Source: Rosistilla oblonga (lineage in GTDB: Bacteria; Planctomycetota; Planctomycetia; Pirellulales; Pirellulaceae). Taken from it: 64,000 nt of DNA. Below, piece after piece: positions 5,793 through 48,817 of the stretch. The stretch covers positions 3,162,001 through 3,226,000 of the forward strand of contig NZ_CP036292.1 of the NCBI RefSeq assembly GCF_007751715.1, in the 5' to 3' direction. Below the pieces are notes generated by a model. It searched no databases and was not told where the DNA came from. It saw only the letters and a program-made list of their open reading frames with translations. The position numbers and the translations under genes were made by a program. Within the stretch, counting starts at the first letter, position 1; every line of letters begins with the position of its first letter.

Positions 5793-6423
5793 GTCCTCGA
5801 CGTGTGGTCACGAAGTTCTTGCCAAGCTTCTTGCGAATGTTGTAGATGTGCACGTCGACAAGGTTCGAGAGCGAGTCTTCGTTCTCATCGAAGACATGAT
5901 CGTAAACGGTGCTGCGCGACACGAGTTCACCTCGATTGAGGGCCAGTAGTTCAACGAGTGTGTATTCCCGAGCCGTTAGGTCGACGGGGCGGCCCTCTTT
6001 TTCAACCGTTCGATTGGCCGTGTTGATGACAACCGAACCGATGACGATTTCGGCCTTCGCTTGTCCGTGACTTCGCCGAATCAGAGCTCGAACGCGGGCC
6101 GATAGTTCGGAGAGCGAAAAGGGTTTACACAAATAGTCGTCGGCGCCGCGGTCGAGCCCCCGCACTCGGTCCTCCACCGTGTCGCGGGCGGTAAGGATGA
6201 GCACCGGCGTGGCGTGCGTCTTCCGCAGTTGGGCGAGCAGTTCCCAGCCGTCGATCTCCGGCAGCATCAAGTCGAGCACGATCGCATCGTAGCTCCACTG
6301 CCTCGCCTTCTGCAGACCGGTCCGTCCGTCGGCGGCTTCGTCGACGGCGTAGTGTTCTTCTCGCAGCGACGTTGCAACGGCGTCTCGCAGACCTGGCTCA
6401 TCTTCGACGACTAGGACTCGCAT
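5770..6423 (-). CDS. OmpR/PhoB-family response regulator
   Basis: 217 residues from the ATG at 6423 (a TTG immediately upstream is also in frame). Receiver domain 1-120: acidic pair E7/D8 (VVEDE), phospho-acceptor D51 (IVLDLMLPEIDGW), T78 (LTA) and K100 (KPFS). The C-terminal winged helix contains VIGSVVINTANRTVEKEGRPVDLT, LTAREYTLVELL and SNLVDVHIYNIRKKLG, ending with the RGHGY hairpin typical of OmpR-type DNA-binding domains. The gene starts 3 bp after the stop of the YHYH-protein gene and overlaps the kinase, so all three are probably one transcript. Its targets are unknown; direct regulation of its own cluster is the simplest guess. Confidence 0.94.
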   Translation of the reverse strand: MRVLVVEDEPGLRDAVATSLREEHYAVDEAADGRTGLQKARQWSYDAIVLDLMLPEIDGWELLAQLRKTHATPVLILTARDTVEDRVRGLDRGADDYLCKPFSLSELSARVRALIRRSHGQAKAEIVIGSVVINTANRTVEKEGRPVDLTAREYTLVELLALNRGELVSRSTVYDHVFDENEDSLSNLVDVHIYNIRKKLGKNFVTTRRGHGYIIET

Positions 6424-6426
6424 CAA

Positions 6427-7587
6427 TCATCCTCGGCGTGGAGGCCGACGGTCGTTGGGGCGCGGTGGCGGCGGACCTCCGCCGCGGCGATCGTCTTGGC
6501 GGGGACGTCGCTTGTAAGTTTCCGTTCGCGTGTTGCCATCGGGTTCCTTATAGATGAACTTCCATGTCTCCGAATCGACGGGCGAATAGGTGACTGTTCC
6601 GGTTTGGCCCCGCAGCCGATACGTCAACACGGATTGTTCTTTTGTCGCCTTGAAATCGGTGATCGTCGCCCCCCGCAGCGGTTGCAAAGCGGGACGTAGC
6701 GGTGAGTCGCGCGGCTGTGGTTCGATCTGATCGCCGCGAACCGTCACGACACCTCGCATCCCGCCGTTGATATAAGGATACGTCGTCGTGGCATGATAGT
6801 GATATCGCCCCTGGGGATCAAATTGGCCATTGAACTCGTCCAGCTTGCCGACGGGAGAACCATCGGCCTCTGTCAATCCGTAGATCGGAAAGCCATCCAA
6901 GGCGAAGGCGATCGGATTGCCGGGGCCCACAATTTTCTGGAGATGAACGGGAGCGACGTGATAGTGGTAGTCGTCGCCTCTGCCGCAGTGGCCGCCGAAT
7001 TCATCCAGCTCGCCCGCGAGAAAGGCATCGTCCCCGCGGTTGTTGAGTGCATTAAAGATCGGGACTCCGTTGACCGCCAACGCGATCGCACCTCGATAGA
7101 GATTGTCTTTCGCGGAGATCGGTTTATCAGCCAACTTCGGATGCAGCGGAATCTGCCAGGCGTTGTTGCCGGTGAAAGGTTGCGGCAGTGGCACTTGTTG
7201 TTGCCAAGATCGAATCCCAACCATCATGTTGTGGTCCGGCAAGCCATTGGATTCGACAAACAGGGTGTTTGCATCCCAGCGAACCTTCAGGTCGTCAAAT
7301 TTCTTAAAGTGTTGGGCAATCGCTGGCTCGTCGTTTTGGGTGCTCACCAATGTCGTCCCGATCAGAATGTATTGAGGCGATGTATTGATTTGCTCGATCG
7401 CCCGTTGAACCTCGGGCTGGGGAGCCTGGGAATGATCGCGTTGATCGGAATGGTTGGCGGAAGCGTGCGAATGCTGGTCCGTTGAATGATGGTGACTGTG
7501 GCGCTGATGCCATTCGTGCGCCGACACGGAAAGTGGCACAAGCATCGCGACCGCGAAACCGAGCGAGAATCGAAACGTCGATATCAT
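6427..7587 (-). CDS. Secreted His-rich YHYH-domain protein
   Basis: 386 residues with a signal peptide (MISTFRFSLGFAVAMLVPLSVSAHE), then a strikingly His-rich stretch (HQRHSHHHS... to about residue 55) that looks like a metal-binding arm. The central ~200 residues form a YHYH domain, named for its motif: DDYHYHVAP and GRYHYHATTTYPY are both visible, with the accompanying FGGHCGRGDDY and ALDGFPIYG elements. The C-terminus is a separate ~100-residue region (GATITDFKATKEQSVLTYRLRGQTGTVTY) ending in a Pro/Arg-rich tail. The domain's function is not established in the literature I know; the histidines make a copper- or zinc-related role plausible. Downstream two-component genes follow with almost no gap. 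Confidence 0.88.
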   Translation of the reverse strand: MISTFRFSLGFAVAMLVPLSVSAHEWHQRHSHHHSTDQHSHASANHSDQRDHSQAPQPEVQRAIEQINTSPQYILIGTTLVSTQNDEPAIAQHFKKFDDLKVRWDANTLFVESNGLPDHNMMVGIRSWQQQVPLPQPFTGNNAWQIPLHPKLADKPISAKDNLYRGAIALAVNGVPIFNALNNRGDDAFLAGELDEFGGHCGRGDDYHYHVAPVHLQKIVGPGNPIAFALDGFPIYGLTEADGSPVGKLDEFNGQFDPQGRYHYHATTTYPYINGGMRGVVTVRGDQIEPQPRDSPLRPALQPLRGATITDFKATKEQSVLTYRLRGQTGTVTYSPVDSETWKFIYKEPDGNTRTETYKRRPRQDDRRGGGPPPPRPNDRRPPRRG

Positions 7588-15151: not shown

Positions 15152-15385
15152 TTGGACGCCGCCTACAATCGGCTGCAACAGGCGGAAGAAGCGACTCGGT
15201 TGTCGGACTACATCGCCGACGTCGAACGCCGCAAGTTCGAACTCGGCGAGAGCGACCTGCTGGCCGTCGTGTTACGCGAACAATACGCTATCGAAGCGGC
15301 GATCTACGAGATCGATGCCAAGCTGGAATATTACATCGCCCGAGCGGATTACGACGCGGCGATGGCGATCGATTGGCCACAATAG
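15152..15385 (+). pseudogene. C-terminal fragment of a TolC-family outer membrane efflux protein
   Basis: About 77 codons from a TTG at 15152 to TAG, starting 33 bp after ppc. The sequence LQQAEEATRLSDYIADVERRKFELGESDLLAVVLREQ followed by a helical stretch ending ARADYDAAM is the final coiled-coil helix of the TolC family (the 'R.F.LG.SDLL.V..RE' signature). Everything N-terminal, including the beta-barrel strands and signal sequence, is missing, and the frame runs backward into ppc without homology. It is best read as a relic left by a deletion that joined ppc to the tail of an exporter gene. Codon use still looks coding, so the event may be recent. It could still be translated as a short peptide. 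Confidence 0.65.
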
Positions 15386-15562
15386 TCGGCCGTAAGTTTC
15401 AGCTCTCCAACTCGTCGTCGGCCGCATCCTCGATGCTTCCTTTCTAACGCGAGTTTCTGCGTTCTGCGGATCTGCAACGAACCTTCGCCGATCGAATCGG
15501 CACGTCGATTGCATGATGGTGGATGTGAACCAATCAACTCACACATCTCCCGCACGAACTCG

Positions 15563-16582
15563 ATGAATACATTTTCCAAGCTCGCTCTCTCTGCCGCCAT
15601 TGGCTATACGGGACTCAAAATCACCCGAGCTGTTGCTCGCCGCAAACGAAACTTCGCCTGGCAAAACAAACGCGTCGTCATCAGTGGAGGTTCGCGCGGG
15701 CTTGGTTTGGTGATTGCCCGACAGCTGGCCGACCAAGGTGCTCGAATCGCGATCACCGCTCGCGGTGAAGGGGATCTTGCTGCTGCGGCGGACGAGTTAC
15801 GCGATCGCGGTGCCGAGGTGATCTCGCAAACCTGTGATGTTCGCCAACCGGAACAAGTGACTCGCTTCATCGATCAAGTGGTTCAGCGTTACGGTGGCGT
15901 CGATGTCCTGATCAACGTTGCGGGGATCATCACGGTGGGCCCACTGGAAGCGATGGAGTTCGATGACTTCGCCGACTCGATGAACACAAACTGTTGGGGT
16001 GCATTGCACACGTCGAAGGCGGTGCTGCCGCACATGCGGTCCGCCGGATGGGGACGAATCGTCAACATCGCTTCGCTCGGCGGCAAGCGAGCCGTGCCAC
16101 ATATGCTCCCCTACGCCGCTAGCAAGTTTGCGTTGGTCGGACTCTCCAACGGGATGCGGGCGGAACTGAAACAAGAGAACATCTTTGTCACGACAGCCTG
16201 TCCCGGGTTGATGCGAACTGGGAGCCCACGGAACGCGAACTTCAAGGGCCAGCATCGCGACGAATACGCTTGGTTCAGTATCGGCGATTCTCTACCGGTG
16301 ATGTCGATGGACGCTGCGACGGCGGCGACGCAGATCTTGGACGCATGCCAGCAAGGACGCGGCGAAGTCTTCATCCACAGTCCGTGGAACATGACGATCG
16401 CCCTGCAGAACCTGTGCCCCGAACTGACACAAGAGATCCTCGGCATGGCCGCGACGGTCCTTCCGAAAATGGGTGGCATCGGTCGCGATTCCGCCAAGGG
16501 GCACGAGAGCCAATCGGCATGGTCACCGTCGGTACTCACCACGCTGACGCAGCGTGCGGCCGCGATGAACAACCAGTTGTAA
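15563..16582 (+). CDS. SDR-family oxidoreductase, membrane-anchored
   Basis: 339 residues from the ATG at 15563; the open frame extends to 15509 without support. A short hydrophobic N-terminus (FSKLALSAAIGYTGLKI) may anchor it or extend the fold. The Rossmann signature SGGSRGLGLVIA (TGxxxGxG-type) and TARGEG indicate NADP(H) preference; NVAG (NNAG-like), the catalytic Ser in NIASLGG and YAASK (Tyr and Lys) are present. It belongs to the short-chain dehydrogenase/reductase group, and the substrate is unknown. The following DUF2892 gene is 34 bp downstream with its own strong ribosome-binding site; the two likely form an operon. Confidence 0.92.
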   Translation: MNTFSKLALSAAIGYTGLKITRAVARRKRNFAWQNKRVVISGGSRGLGLVIARQLADQGARIAITARGEGDLAAAADELRDRGAEVISQTCDVRQPEQVTRFIDQVVQRYGGVDVLINVAGIITVGPLEAMEFDDFADSMNTNCWGALHTSKAVLPHMRSAGWGRIVNIASLGGKRAVPHMLPYAASKFALVGLSNGMRAELKQENIFVTTACPGLMRTGSPRNANFKGQHRDEYAWFSIGDSLPVMSMDAATAATQILDACQQGRGEVFIHSPWNMTIALQNLCPELTQEILGMAATVLPKMGGIGRDSAKGHESQSAWSPSVLTTLTQRAAAMNNQL

Positions 16583-47247: not shown

Positions 47248-47652
47248 TCATTGGGGCCCCTCGCTTTCACGAGCCAACTCACGGACGCGAATCGTAACGT
47301 CCTCACCGGCGCAATGAGCCACAACGATGAATGGCGGCGTTACGTCGATTGCTTGACGTATCACGCTCTGTGCGAGCGCTATCGTTTTTGCCGGCTGCAT
47401 GTGGCCCGGACGCAGGTACAGGATTCCGTAGACAGCTTGTCTGCGGCGAATAGCCAAAGCTCCAAAATCGGAGTCGTGCGTTACAACCACTCGCTTGTCT
47501 TCGACCGCCAGCTGCAGTAGTTCACCGTCCGGTTTTCCGCTCCAGCCTTCTTCGCGGACCGACTGCACGTCCATCTCCATCGCTCGCAGGGATTCGACCA
47601 CCCGCGAATGCAGATTTTCGTCCGCCAACAGACGGCAGTCGTTTAGCTTCAC
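47248..47652 (-). CDS. DUF5615 PIN-like protein (putative toxin)
   Basis: 134 residues from a GTG at 47652 that overlaps the stop of the upstream DUF433 gene (GTGA). The N-terminal motif LLADENLHSRVVESLR and central VVVTHDSDFGALA are the signatures of DUF5615, a PIN-like (Mut7-C) group with acidic Asp/Glu/Asp residues that could bind a metal and cut RNA. Then a C-terminal segment (TPPFIVVAHCAGEDVTIRVREL) of alternating strands. DUF5615 is usually encoded right after DUF433 and regarded as a toxin-antitoxin-like pair, though direct proof of toxicity is limited as far as I know. Confidence 0.88.
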   Translation of the reverse strand: MKLNDCRLLADENLHSRVVESLRAMEMDVQSVREEGWSGKPDGELLQLAVEDKRVVVTHDSDFGALAIRRRQAVYGILYLRPGHMQPAKTIALAQSVIRQAIDVTPPFIVVAHCAGEDVTIRVRELARESEGPQ

Positions 47653-47879
47653 GACGCGACTTTGGTCTGTATCACCAAGTTGTCGTGCAGAGCAGCGGCG
47701 GCATAGCGGAGCGCTTGCTGAACATCTTCGATCGACAGATGGTCGTATTCGGAAACGATTTCCTCCGGGCTCGCGCCGCTCGCGAGCCATTCGAGAATGA
47801 TCTCGACGCTGATCCGCGTTCCTTTGACTGTCGGTTTGCCGCTCAGAATTTCCGGATCACAGACGATTCGATCGAACAT
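47649..47879 (-). CDS. DUF433 protein (putative antitoxin)
   Basis: 76 residues from the ATG at 47879, preceded by GGAGA; the frame is open further upstream without coding signal. Sequence: MFDRIVCDPEILSGKPTVKGTRISVEIILEWLASGASPEEIVSEYDHLS..., i.e. the DUF433 motifs 'I..dP.i.gGkP.i.GTRi.v..il..la.G.s.eeI...yp.l' with a helix-turn-helix-like fold and C-terminal helix (IEDVQQALRYAAAALHD). It is the first gene of a two-gene unit coupled to DUF5615 by GTGA overlap and is expected to bind DNA and neutralise the partner, which is inferred from family context. Confidence 0.93.
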   Translation of the reverse strand: MFDRIVCDPEILSGKPTVKGTRISVEIILEWLASGASPEEIVSEYDHLSIEDVQQALRYAAAALHDNLVIQTKVAS

Positions 47880-48165: not shown

Positions 48166-48465
48166 CGTTTAACCGCGTGCCCAACGGGCCGCGCTTCCCC
48201 GCCACCCAATGAGGACGCGCGGGGCGTTGCCGCCGCGGTTAAACGAAGATTGCGGGTGTCGGCTTGTCCGCCGTCGTTTAACCGCGTGCCCAGCGGGCCG
48301 CGCTTTTCCGCCGCCCAATGAGGACGCGCGGGGCGTTGCCGCCGCGGTTAAACGAAGGTTTGGGGCGATCGGTGTTTGCGACTGTCTTTTAACCGCGTGC
48401 CCATCGGGCCGCGCTTCCCCGTCACCCATCGAGGACGCGCGGGGCGTTGCCGCCGCGGTTAAACG
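48166..48465. repeat. Array of three 80-bp palindromic repeats with unique spacers
   Basis: Three copies lie at 48166-48245, 48275-48354 and 48386-48465, separated by unique spacers of 29 bp (48246-48274) and 31 bp (48355-48385). Copies differ by about 4-5 substitutions from the first. Each begins CGTTTAACCGCG and ends CGCGGTTAAACG (perfect 12-bp inverted repeat; first G is T in copy 3). Inside, CAACG pairs with CGTTG and CCGCGC with GCGCGG, separated by symmetric 4+4 and 2+2 internal loops, leaving a 22-nt apical loop: a stem of 23 pairs. Each copy is followed by AAG. It is not a coding region and not CRISPR-like in unit length. Confidence 0.9.
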
Positions 48466-48613
48466 AAGGGAGCGGGGAAGCGAAGCTCGTGGTGTGGTTG
48501 GTTTGGTTGCTGGGCTTATCGACGCGTGGTATGGCCCCGGGTACGATGGCGAGTGCCGGAATAATCAGCCCGTGGTTTGGGCTTGGAGGCGGCGTGGAGG
48601 AGATGAAAGACCT

Positions 48614-48817
48614 ATGATCGAAGTTACCGTCAACGGCCAGGCTCAACAGATCGAAGGCCCGATGAGCGTCGCAGCGCTGTTGGAGATCGTCGAAATCCCC
48701 GGCCCCTATCTGGCCGTCGAACTCAACGAAGACGTGGTGCCGCGCGAACATCACGGTGACCAGCAAGTTGCGGCGGGAGACCGTATCGAAGTCGTCACGC
48801 TCGTCGGCGGGGGCTGA
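48614..48817 (+). CDS. thiS: Sulfur carrier protein ThiS
   Basis: 67 residues; start chosen at 48614 with GGAGGAG about 11 nt upstream (the open frame reaches back through the repeats). It has the ubiquitin-like fold pattern IEVTVNGQAQQIEGPMSVAALLEIVEIPGPYLAVELNEDVVPRE and ends in the essential Gly-Gly tail (LVGGG). ThiS is adenylated by ThiF, carries sulfur as thiocarboxylate and donates it to ThiG for the thiazole ring of thiamine. thiG lies 73 bp downstream. No TPP riboswitch was recognised upstream; the repeat array occupies much of that region. Confidence 0.92.
   Translation: MIEVTVNGQAQQIEGPMSVAALLEIVEIPGPYLAVELNEDVVPREHHGDQQVAAGDRIEVVTLVGGG

Follow-up and report, generated by a model that had tools for sequence, protein, structure and literature searches.

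Introduction

REPINs and BIMEs are built of two inverted monomers, each formed by a tag and a hairpin, which together can fold into one larger hairpin. As presented in the accessible sections of the published accounts (PMC3116915, PMC2817692, PMC6006769), they are extragenic and dispersed, also occur in tandem clusters, and are linked to a low-copy Y1 transposase. The TnpA-REP/RAYT transposases described in the available part of PMC6006769 (classes 2.1-2.8 and 3) carry a one-tyrosine HUH domain, are mostly present in one copy per genome, and are flanked by repeated hairpins. Class 3, which occurs in Planctomycetes, is characterized there by the motifs NHVH and YV..EQ and by a CnGA foot. Within the accessible parts of the published accounts, REP/RAYT pairs have either a GT[AG]G tag or no clear one. 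Two further kinds of repeats that lack GTAG are found in the available text of PMC3733652. The CGTC-tagged REPs form mainly inverted dimers, have CGTC 5' of the hairpin and A-T pairs at the start of the stem, and no linked transposase was found for them there. TIRtrons, with their TIRYT genes (section 16), are Y1 genes flanked by long terminal inverted repeats (TIRs), some of them having moderately abundant dispersed copies; copies of some of the TIRs form dimers or clusters.

Here we describe an array of three inverted-repeat units in a 64,000-nucleotide stretch of the Rosistilla oblonga chromosome (hereafter, the window). The window's genome (G000, one contig of 7.25 Mb) was compared with two sister genomes of the same genus (G001 and G002). 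With a probability of roughly 0.86, the array is a tandem cluster of ~80-bp non-autonomous REP-like doublets mobilised by a TnpA-REP/RAYT-like enzyme and probably orphaned in G000. Its units share with REPINs and BIMEs the inverted tag-and-hairpin monomers able to form one larger hairpin, a similar size, the extragenic and dispersed location, the tandem clusters, and the linked low-copy Y1 transposase. They differ in the tag, with GTTTAAC (or a TTTAGC-like form in distant members) in place of GTAG or GTGG, in the extent of conserved sequence, which covers nearly the whole 29-nt arm, in the host clade (Planctomycetota), and in that G000 has no detectable transposase. The canonical GT[AG]G tetranucleotide is absent from the foot of the hairpin. 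Like the CGTC-tagged REPs, the repeats are non-GTAG and form inverted dimers; unlike them, they have TTTAAC 5' of the hairpin and a stem that does not start with A-T pairs, and a transposase is linked to them in relatives. The enzymes of these relatives resemble the TnpA-REP/RAYT subclasses in having a one-tyrosine HUH domain, in occurring mostly once per genome, and in being flanked by repeated hairpins. The likeness to TIRtrons, compared by their text description rather than by TIR sequences, consists in Y1 genes with long inverted repeats without GTAG and in dispersed copies. No GTTTAAC-tagged REP was found by a literature search (supplements lay outside its reach), and neither the GTTTAAC tag nor the [EQ]H[TV]H motif occurs in the accessible parts of PMC3733652, PMC6006769, PMC2817692, PMC3116915, PMC6749651, and PMC5177795.

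Results and Discussion

Architecture of the array

The three 80-bp units reported in the initial annotation were recovered, as were the lengths of the gaps between them (Table 1). Relative to copy 1, copy 2 has 4 substitutions and copy 3 has 5; copies 2 and 3 are 8 substitutions apart. The unit ends, earlier given as exact complements throughout, are so in the first two copies but not in the third, which opens with CTTTTAACCGCG (CTTTTAAC instead of CGTTTAAC). The spacers had been considered unrelated; in fact, spacers 1 and 2 are 65% alike (a value reached by 4 of 2000 shuffles), and they are 79 and 84% alike to spacers 3 and 2, respectively, of the orthologous array in G002, which has five units as compared with three in the window. 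Given this homology among the spacers and to those of G002, the duplicated block is a unit plus a spacer, ~110 bp in length. The separation from CRISPR, previously based on unit length, stands: the units are 80 bp long and, in addition, the spacers are homologous, so that the array shows neither short repeats nor unrelated spacers.

Table 1. Features of the repeat array (positions in the window)
Feature	Position	Strand	Details
Unit 1, REP-like doublet	48166..48245	+	arms 48167-48195 (+) and 48216-48244 (-), 20-nt loop between them
Unit 2, REP-like doublet	48275..48354	+	arms 48276-48304 (+) and 48325-48353 (-)
Unit 3, REP-like doublet	48386..48465	+	arms 48387-48415 (+, first tag base is T) and 48436-48464 (-)
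Unit 1 left-arm tag GTTTAAC	48167..48173	+	unpaired 5' of the hairpin when the arm is folded alone as DNA
Unit 1 arm hairpin CGCG-(T bulge)-GCCC-AAC-GGGC-CGCG	48174..48193	+	8 pairs, 3-nt loop
Spacer 1, 29 bp	48246..48274	.	homologous to spacer 3 of the G002 array
Spacer 2, 31 bp	48355..48385	.	homologous to spacer 2 of the G002 array

The array is bordered by a minus-strand DUF433/DUF5615 gene pair and by thiS-thiG, which is on the plus strand. The adjoining pair (47248-47879, minus strand), whose DUF5615 member is PIN-like, is toxin-antitoxin-like, and the orthologous gap of G002 does not contain it. A 202-aa open frame (48209-48817, plus strand) crosses the repeats into thiS; the frame of the ThiS domain starts at 48614. 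This frame and an 86-aa frame on the opposite strand through the array are probably spurious.

Distribution of the repeats

The array is far beyond chance. A BLAST search with unit 1 yielded 118 matches in G000 and further ones in G001 and G002, which disposes of a chance local duplication, the reading that the initial annotation had reserved for a unit without copies elsewhere in the genome or in relatives. The left-arm pattern, with up to two mismatches allowed, occurs 138 times in G000, 24 times in G001, and 162 times in G002, whereas the reversed pattern, used as a control, gave no match in each of them. Among 40 genomes searched with the unit by BLAST (G000 included), six had a match, namely G000, G001, G002, and, weakly, three others; the plasmid and phage collections searched gave none.

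Clusters of at least two arms were placed relative to genes in 47 stretches of G000, including the window. None of the 45 clusters overlaps a called gene, the calls being made by a home-made gene caller that may under-call genes in repeats; together with the number of left arms, this gives the high-copy, dispersed, and extragenic pattern of REP doublets. Tandem, convergent, and divergent gaps hold 23, 17, and 5 clusters, respectively, the window cluster being counted as divergent because of the DUF433/DUF5615 pair beside it. The comparison set of all other gaps of at least 100 bp (n = 234) comprises 147 tandem, 32 convergent, and 55 divergent ones. Clusters are thus enriched in convergent gaps (17/45 vs 32/234, p = 3.8e-4) and depleted in divergent gaps (p = 0.07).

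The identity between arrays is 95% for the left arm and 91% for the right arm, as compared with 46% for the loop (40% after shuffling), whereas the loops within one array are 81% alike. It follows that arrays grew by local duplication and that essentially the arms alone are conserved between them. The spacers inside arrays are mostly 14-57 nt long, with a few of 170-265 nt.

Other repeats were also encountered. At three places within 12 kb (L063:3814-4222, 6272-6674, and 15366-15766), pairs of units enclose a ~260-bp palindromic block (GGTAGCCGGAGGTCGTCGCGC...). At L059:4325-4502, the spacer between two units contains a short tandem repeat (GCGTGAGTGATTCGATTC-like) that is itself enclosed by a larger inverted repeat. 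A second dispersed repeat, ~155 bp long, has a GTAG foot (GTAGTGGACGAGG...CCTCGTCCACTAC) inside the ends GTTCAACGAAG/CTTCGTTGAAC; it is located at L053:4148-4310, in a spacer (L057:4180-4349), and inside a unit (L070:4288-4454). A query carrying this repeat gave 94 matches in G001 and 85 in G002, mostly to the ~155-bp part, and in G001 the repeat flanks another weak Y1_Tnp gene (L109).

Folding of the units

Each unit consists of two inverted 29-nt arms, and each arm consists of a GTTTAAC tag and its own 8-bp bulged hairpin. When folded as DNA, the left arm has seven unpaired tag nucleotides followed by a hairpin made up of eight pairs, one bulge, and a 3-nt loop (Table 1); the right arm takes the same form. 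This corrects the earlier exclusion of REP, since each half-unit is a REP-like tag with a hairpin and the 80-bp unit is their doublet. The conservation of this architecture was followed in 70 both-ended units taken from 27 G000 stretches and the window, which represent a part of the population. The tag is near-invariant among them, although selection by unit ends favours intact tags, and all 70 have opposed arms, having been chosen for possessing both ends.

The initial annotation had proposed a single long stem for the whole unit. This stem does fold well (MFE z of -4.5, -2.6, and -2.2 on the plus strand), but the small hairpin inside each arm is better conserved. All eight arm-hairpin pairs are intact in 61 of 70 left arms and in as many right arms, whereas the long-stem reading of the same 20 positions leaves at most 15 paired in 61 of 70 units, most commonly 13; the tag, whose seven positions are paired in the long stem, is left out of this comparison. 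The wobble argument built on CAACG, CAGCG, and CATCG concerned a base that is not a pairing position, as it forms the middle of the 3-nt loop. This base, left-arm position 18, is distributed as A22/C2/G22/T24 over the 70 units between two nearly fixed neighbours, and it shows no covariation over these units with its supposed long-stem partner, right-arm position 10. Right-arm positions 15-16 occur as GC (23 units), AC (20), CA (20), CG (6), and AA (1). The first four forms (69/70) each leave one bulged base and eight possible pairs, and these variants mostly break the long stem at that point.

These data bear on the proposal that the array is a tandem structured RNA, such as a riboswitch, a small RNA, or an RNA-processing element, acting in the thiS-thiG leader. 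Such a role would suit the position of the array 5' of thiS/thiG and the stable long hairpins (MFE z from -2.2 to -4.5 over both strands). However, variation is tolerated at the pairing positions of the long stem and not at those of the arm hairpins: position 18 and its partner do not covary, and the right-arm variants mostly disrupt the long stem, four of the five leaving the arm hairpin possible. Furthermore, Rfam gives no match at gathering score in the whole window, a terminator and promoter scan found no terminator-like or sigma-70-like consensus site on the units, the loops are array-specific and nearly unrelated between arrays, and the same arms recur across dozens of unrelated gaps (17/45 convergent). 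We therefore regard the RNA explanation as very unlikely.

Outside the genus, the folding is less distinct. Among nine arms of other lineages folded singly, several (the GGCA, GCCA, CCGG, and AGTC types and one GTTTAGC arm) were no better than shuffles. The structural argument is therefore strongest within the own genus, and the REP-doublet monomer, a 5' tag with a short hairpin, is found in G000 and less clearly in other genera.

Transposases associated with the repeats

In G002, a Y1-like (HUH) gene recognized through a weak PF01797 match lies inside an array, between arms. Its product (P0001, 212 residues) has the motifs QHVH and YVLENP. The best-matching families are NF047646, the REP-associated tyrosine transposase (41.9 bits, cut-off 80), and PF01797 (21.6 bits, cut-off 23). 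NF047646 (REP_Tyr_transpos) is the best NCBIfam match of three members of the group (E from 4e-9 to 3e-12), with scores of 41.9, 36.5, and 46.8 bits that are below the curated 80-bit cut-off, and Pfam scores lie around the cut-off. A profile search against PDB gave weak Y1 matches, 2ec2 (E 0.007) and 4er8, TnpArep (E 0.16).

Residues Y180, N184, and P185 are invariant in eight aligned rows, in agreement with the class 2 motif Y...NP, given as YV..NP in the accessible portion of PMC6006769. The HUH motif is mostly [EQ]H[TV]H, the residue before HxH being mostly E or Q and in a few cases N, C, or S, and the N-terminal part contains a YGFWLPND.RGSW block. In both features the group departs from the TnpA-REP/RAYT subclasses; in the available subclass table of that paper, D or N precedes HxH and [EQ]H[TV]H fits none of the entries. 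A literature search for the peptide WLPNDPRG found nothing.

Homologues were detected by tblastn (E <= 1e-5) in 38 of 241 genomes of the family, representing 23 of 68 genera. Strong homologues (E <= 3.2e-20) occur in 31 of the 241 genomes, 27 with one match row and 4 with two, a low copy number typical of RAYTs. In a phylum sample of 392 genomes, profile matches with E <= 1e-25 were found in 12 genomes at 19 loci. Nine of these loci have gene-side hairpins, identified by eye, ending with GTTTAAC, GTTTAGC, ATTTAGC, or CGTTAGC; the remaining ones, about half, have no such hairpin or none that is clear.

Linkage and shared history of repeats and transposases

An arm of the GTTTAAC type is located within 900 bp of the transposase gene at 28 of 30 fetched loci (18 genera). 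The two loci without an exact GTTTAAC arm are L158, which has GTTTAGC arms, and L161; the single GTTTAAC arms of L159 and L162 could be due to chance. The flanks were compared at the 25 loci with at least 200 bp on either side of the gene. The same 11-mer (GTTTAAC plus four nucleotides) is present on both sides within 700 bp at 20 of them (16 genera), the exceptions being L136, L142, L156, L161, and L163. As a control, six genomes provided 27 other Y1_Tnp loci, all distinct, 15 of them from the three same-genus genomes that hold the repeat; three loci have any GTTTAAC and none shares an 11-mer. A Y1 gene flanked by the same repeats, a hallmark of RAYTs, is thus found in relatives (20/25 vs 0/27) and not in G000. 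None of the five ordinary Y1_Tnp (PF01797) genes of G000 has an arm within 1.5 kb, the best candidate having 7 mismatches in 24 positions, and a link of the repeats to these genes was dropped for this reason. Arrays were noted ~9 kb (L057) and ~8 kb (L059) from ordinary PF01797 genes.

The flanking repeats raise the alternative that a unit represents the joined terminal inverted repeats of an IS200-like element, i.e., a TIR-type miniature element of the TIRtron kind (PMC3733652), and not a REP doublet. Long inverted repeats do flank the transposase gene in relatives. In the phylum sample, moreover, a tag-and-hairpin arm is not seen at about half of the distant loci, which slightly lowered our estimate for the REP doublet and raised that for this reading. 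On the other hand, the own-type arms are themselves a tag with a hairpin, and whole doublets lie on each side of the gene at several loci. We consider the TIR-type interpretation unlikely; as to the mechanism, there is little difference between it and the REP doublet.

Another type of site with similar ends is the integron attC, the R-box consensus of which is RYYYAAC...GTTRRRY. The GTTTAAC...GTTAAAC ends fit this consensus, and the variable loop between conserved arms is also attC-like. Nevertheless, no integron integrase above the 265-bit cut-off was found in G000 (four matches at two loci, 55-81 bits), and matches below the cut-off appeared in all 14 control genomes as well. Moreover, most spacers of the arrays (14-57 nt) are too short for cassette genes, and the linked enzyme is a Y1 transposase. 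An attC or CALIN identity was therefore rejected, its probability being negligible.

The REP-doublet reading is further consistent with the common history of arms and enzymes. When arm types were mapped on the transposase tree, eight changes were required (minimum 7; mean after shuffling 16.8; none of 200 shuffles as low). This test covered 27 transposases with eight labels assigned by eye from the nucleotides after GTTTAAC, L159 being labelled "none"; the distant or damaged L161-L163 were left out. One host genus, g23, holds both the GGCA and AGTC arm types, which indicates that the arm type goes with the enzyme and not with the host. In the tree, the G002 and G191 transposases are placed together (support 100/100); G191 is a genome from another genus with the same CCGCG arm.

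A search of named genomes for the exact 27-nt arm gave 99 matching stretches; the 80 listed ones are all in records named as Planctomycetota, and a homologous transposase is present at 2 of these 80 loci. At L233, from a Fuerstiella MAG, four CCGCG arms lie ~90-320 bp from the transposase gene on one side only. This transposase, found via its arm alone, falls inside the predicted CCGCG clade (support 97/94). At L200, the CCGCG arm is 2.9 kb from the transposase gene and nearer arms are of another type. Records with the exact arm (L193-L272) carry the names Fuerstiella, Rubripirellula, Pirellula, and Candidatus Kuenenia, which suggests either transfer across orders or mislabelled MAGs.

A generic arm pattern, CGTTTAACNNN{1,3}GCCGNAGGC, was found in 66 of the 241 genomes of the family; the counts for the control were 0 or 1. 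At least 10 matches were found in 14 of 31 transposase-bearing genomes vs 17 of 210 others (p = 1.1e-6), in a test that ignores relatedness, includes many draft genomes, and uses counts copied by hand. Own-type arms do not fit the generic pattern, and G002 and G191 were therefore scored as misses. Since 17 of the 31 family genomes with at least 10 matches have no strong transposase match, repeat populations without a detected enzyme are common.

Probable mobility and orphan state

At one single-unit locus of G000, the unit is absent from the orthologous place in both sisters. Of the unit and the second, ~155-bp repeat, just the latter is present there in G001 and neither in G002, the junctions being at GGGGCGTTAAACT; this was the one empty site looked at, and its junctions are complicated by the ~155-bp repeat. 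The place of the G002 transposase gene is occupied in G000 by one unit, which has the unusual arm of the first G002 unit, and no transposase gene; in G001, the right flank has no element and the left flank did not align. Array size also differs at orthologous loci, with three units vs five in one case and one unit vs an array in another; such changes come about by tandem duplication. The repeats themselves would have spread by transposition. The initial annotation had listed a mobile palindromic element among its options, and this option agrees with the dispersed extragenic copies, the unit missing in two sisters, and the transposase genes embedded in such repeats in relatives.

By analogy with the known REP/TnpA-REP system, a Y1/HUH transposase of the TnpA-REP/RAYT type would bind the arm hairpins in single-stranded DNA, cut near the GTTTAAC tag, and move doublets to new extragenic places. 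Arrays would then gain or lose members by duplication or recombination of a doublet with its spacer.

No cognate transposase was detected by tblastn in G000 (E <= 0.01, one genome assembly) or in G001. The repeats of G000 thus look orphaned, as judged by this negative search in one assembly, and the population is probably no longer transposing unless another enzyme acts on it. Their persistence might have a different cause, namely that a once mobile array is now kept by selection for a host protein that makes use of its hairpins, as a binding array for a regulator or a nucleoid protein; an action on REPs has been reported for IHF, Pol I, and gyrase (accessible part of PMC6006769). Such exaptation would account for arm hairpins that are intact in 61 of 70 units of a genome without a detectable cognate transposase, and exact left arms are more frequent in G000 (99/138) than in G001 (11/24; p = 0.017, counted by hand). 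Yet the transposase may just have been lost recently, tandem duplication raises the count of intact copies, G001, which also has no detected transposase, looks more decayed, and array size varies between sister species. We find exaptation doubtful, though less so than the TIR-type alternative.

A broader interpretation, which we offer tentatively as possible and well below even odds, would be that the units belong to a REP/transposase lineage spread throughout Planctomycetota, with its own tag (TTTAAC, or TTTAGC in distant members) and an enzyme subclass outside the published table. Its repeats and enzymes would diversify together and cross genera, and orphaned populations, such as that of G000, would be kept by selection for a host function once the transposase was gone.

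Implications

Open frames that cross such arrays, e.g., the 202-aa and 86-aa frames of the window, are probably spurious, and annotators should treat them with caution. The flank test (20/25 loci, 16 genera) and the tree concordance connect a distinct tag with a distinct transposase group. The matched variants of repeats and enzymes form a natural set for studying hairpin recognition by a Y1 enzyme. G000, in which many repeats are intact and an enzyme is not detectable, and G002, with the enzyme inside an array, provide a comparison of decay and retention.
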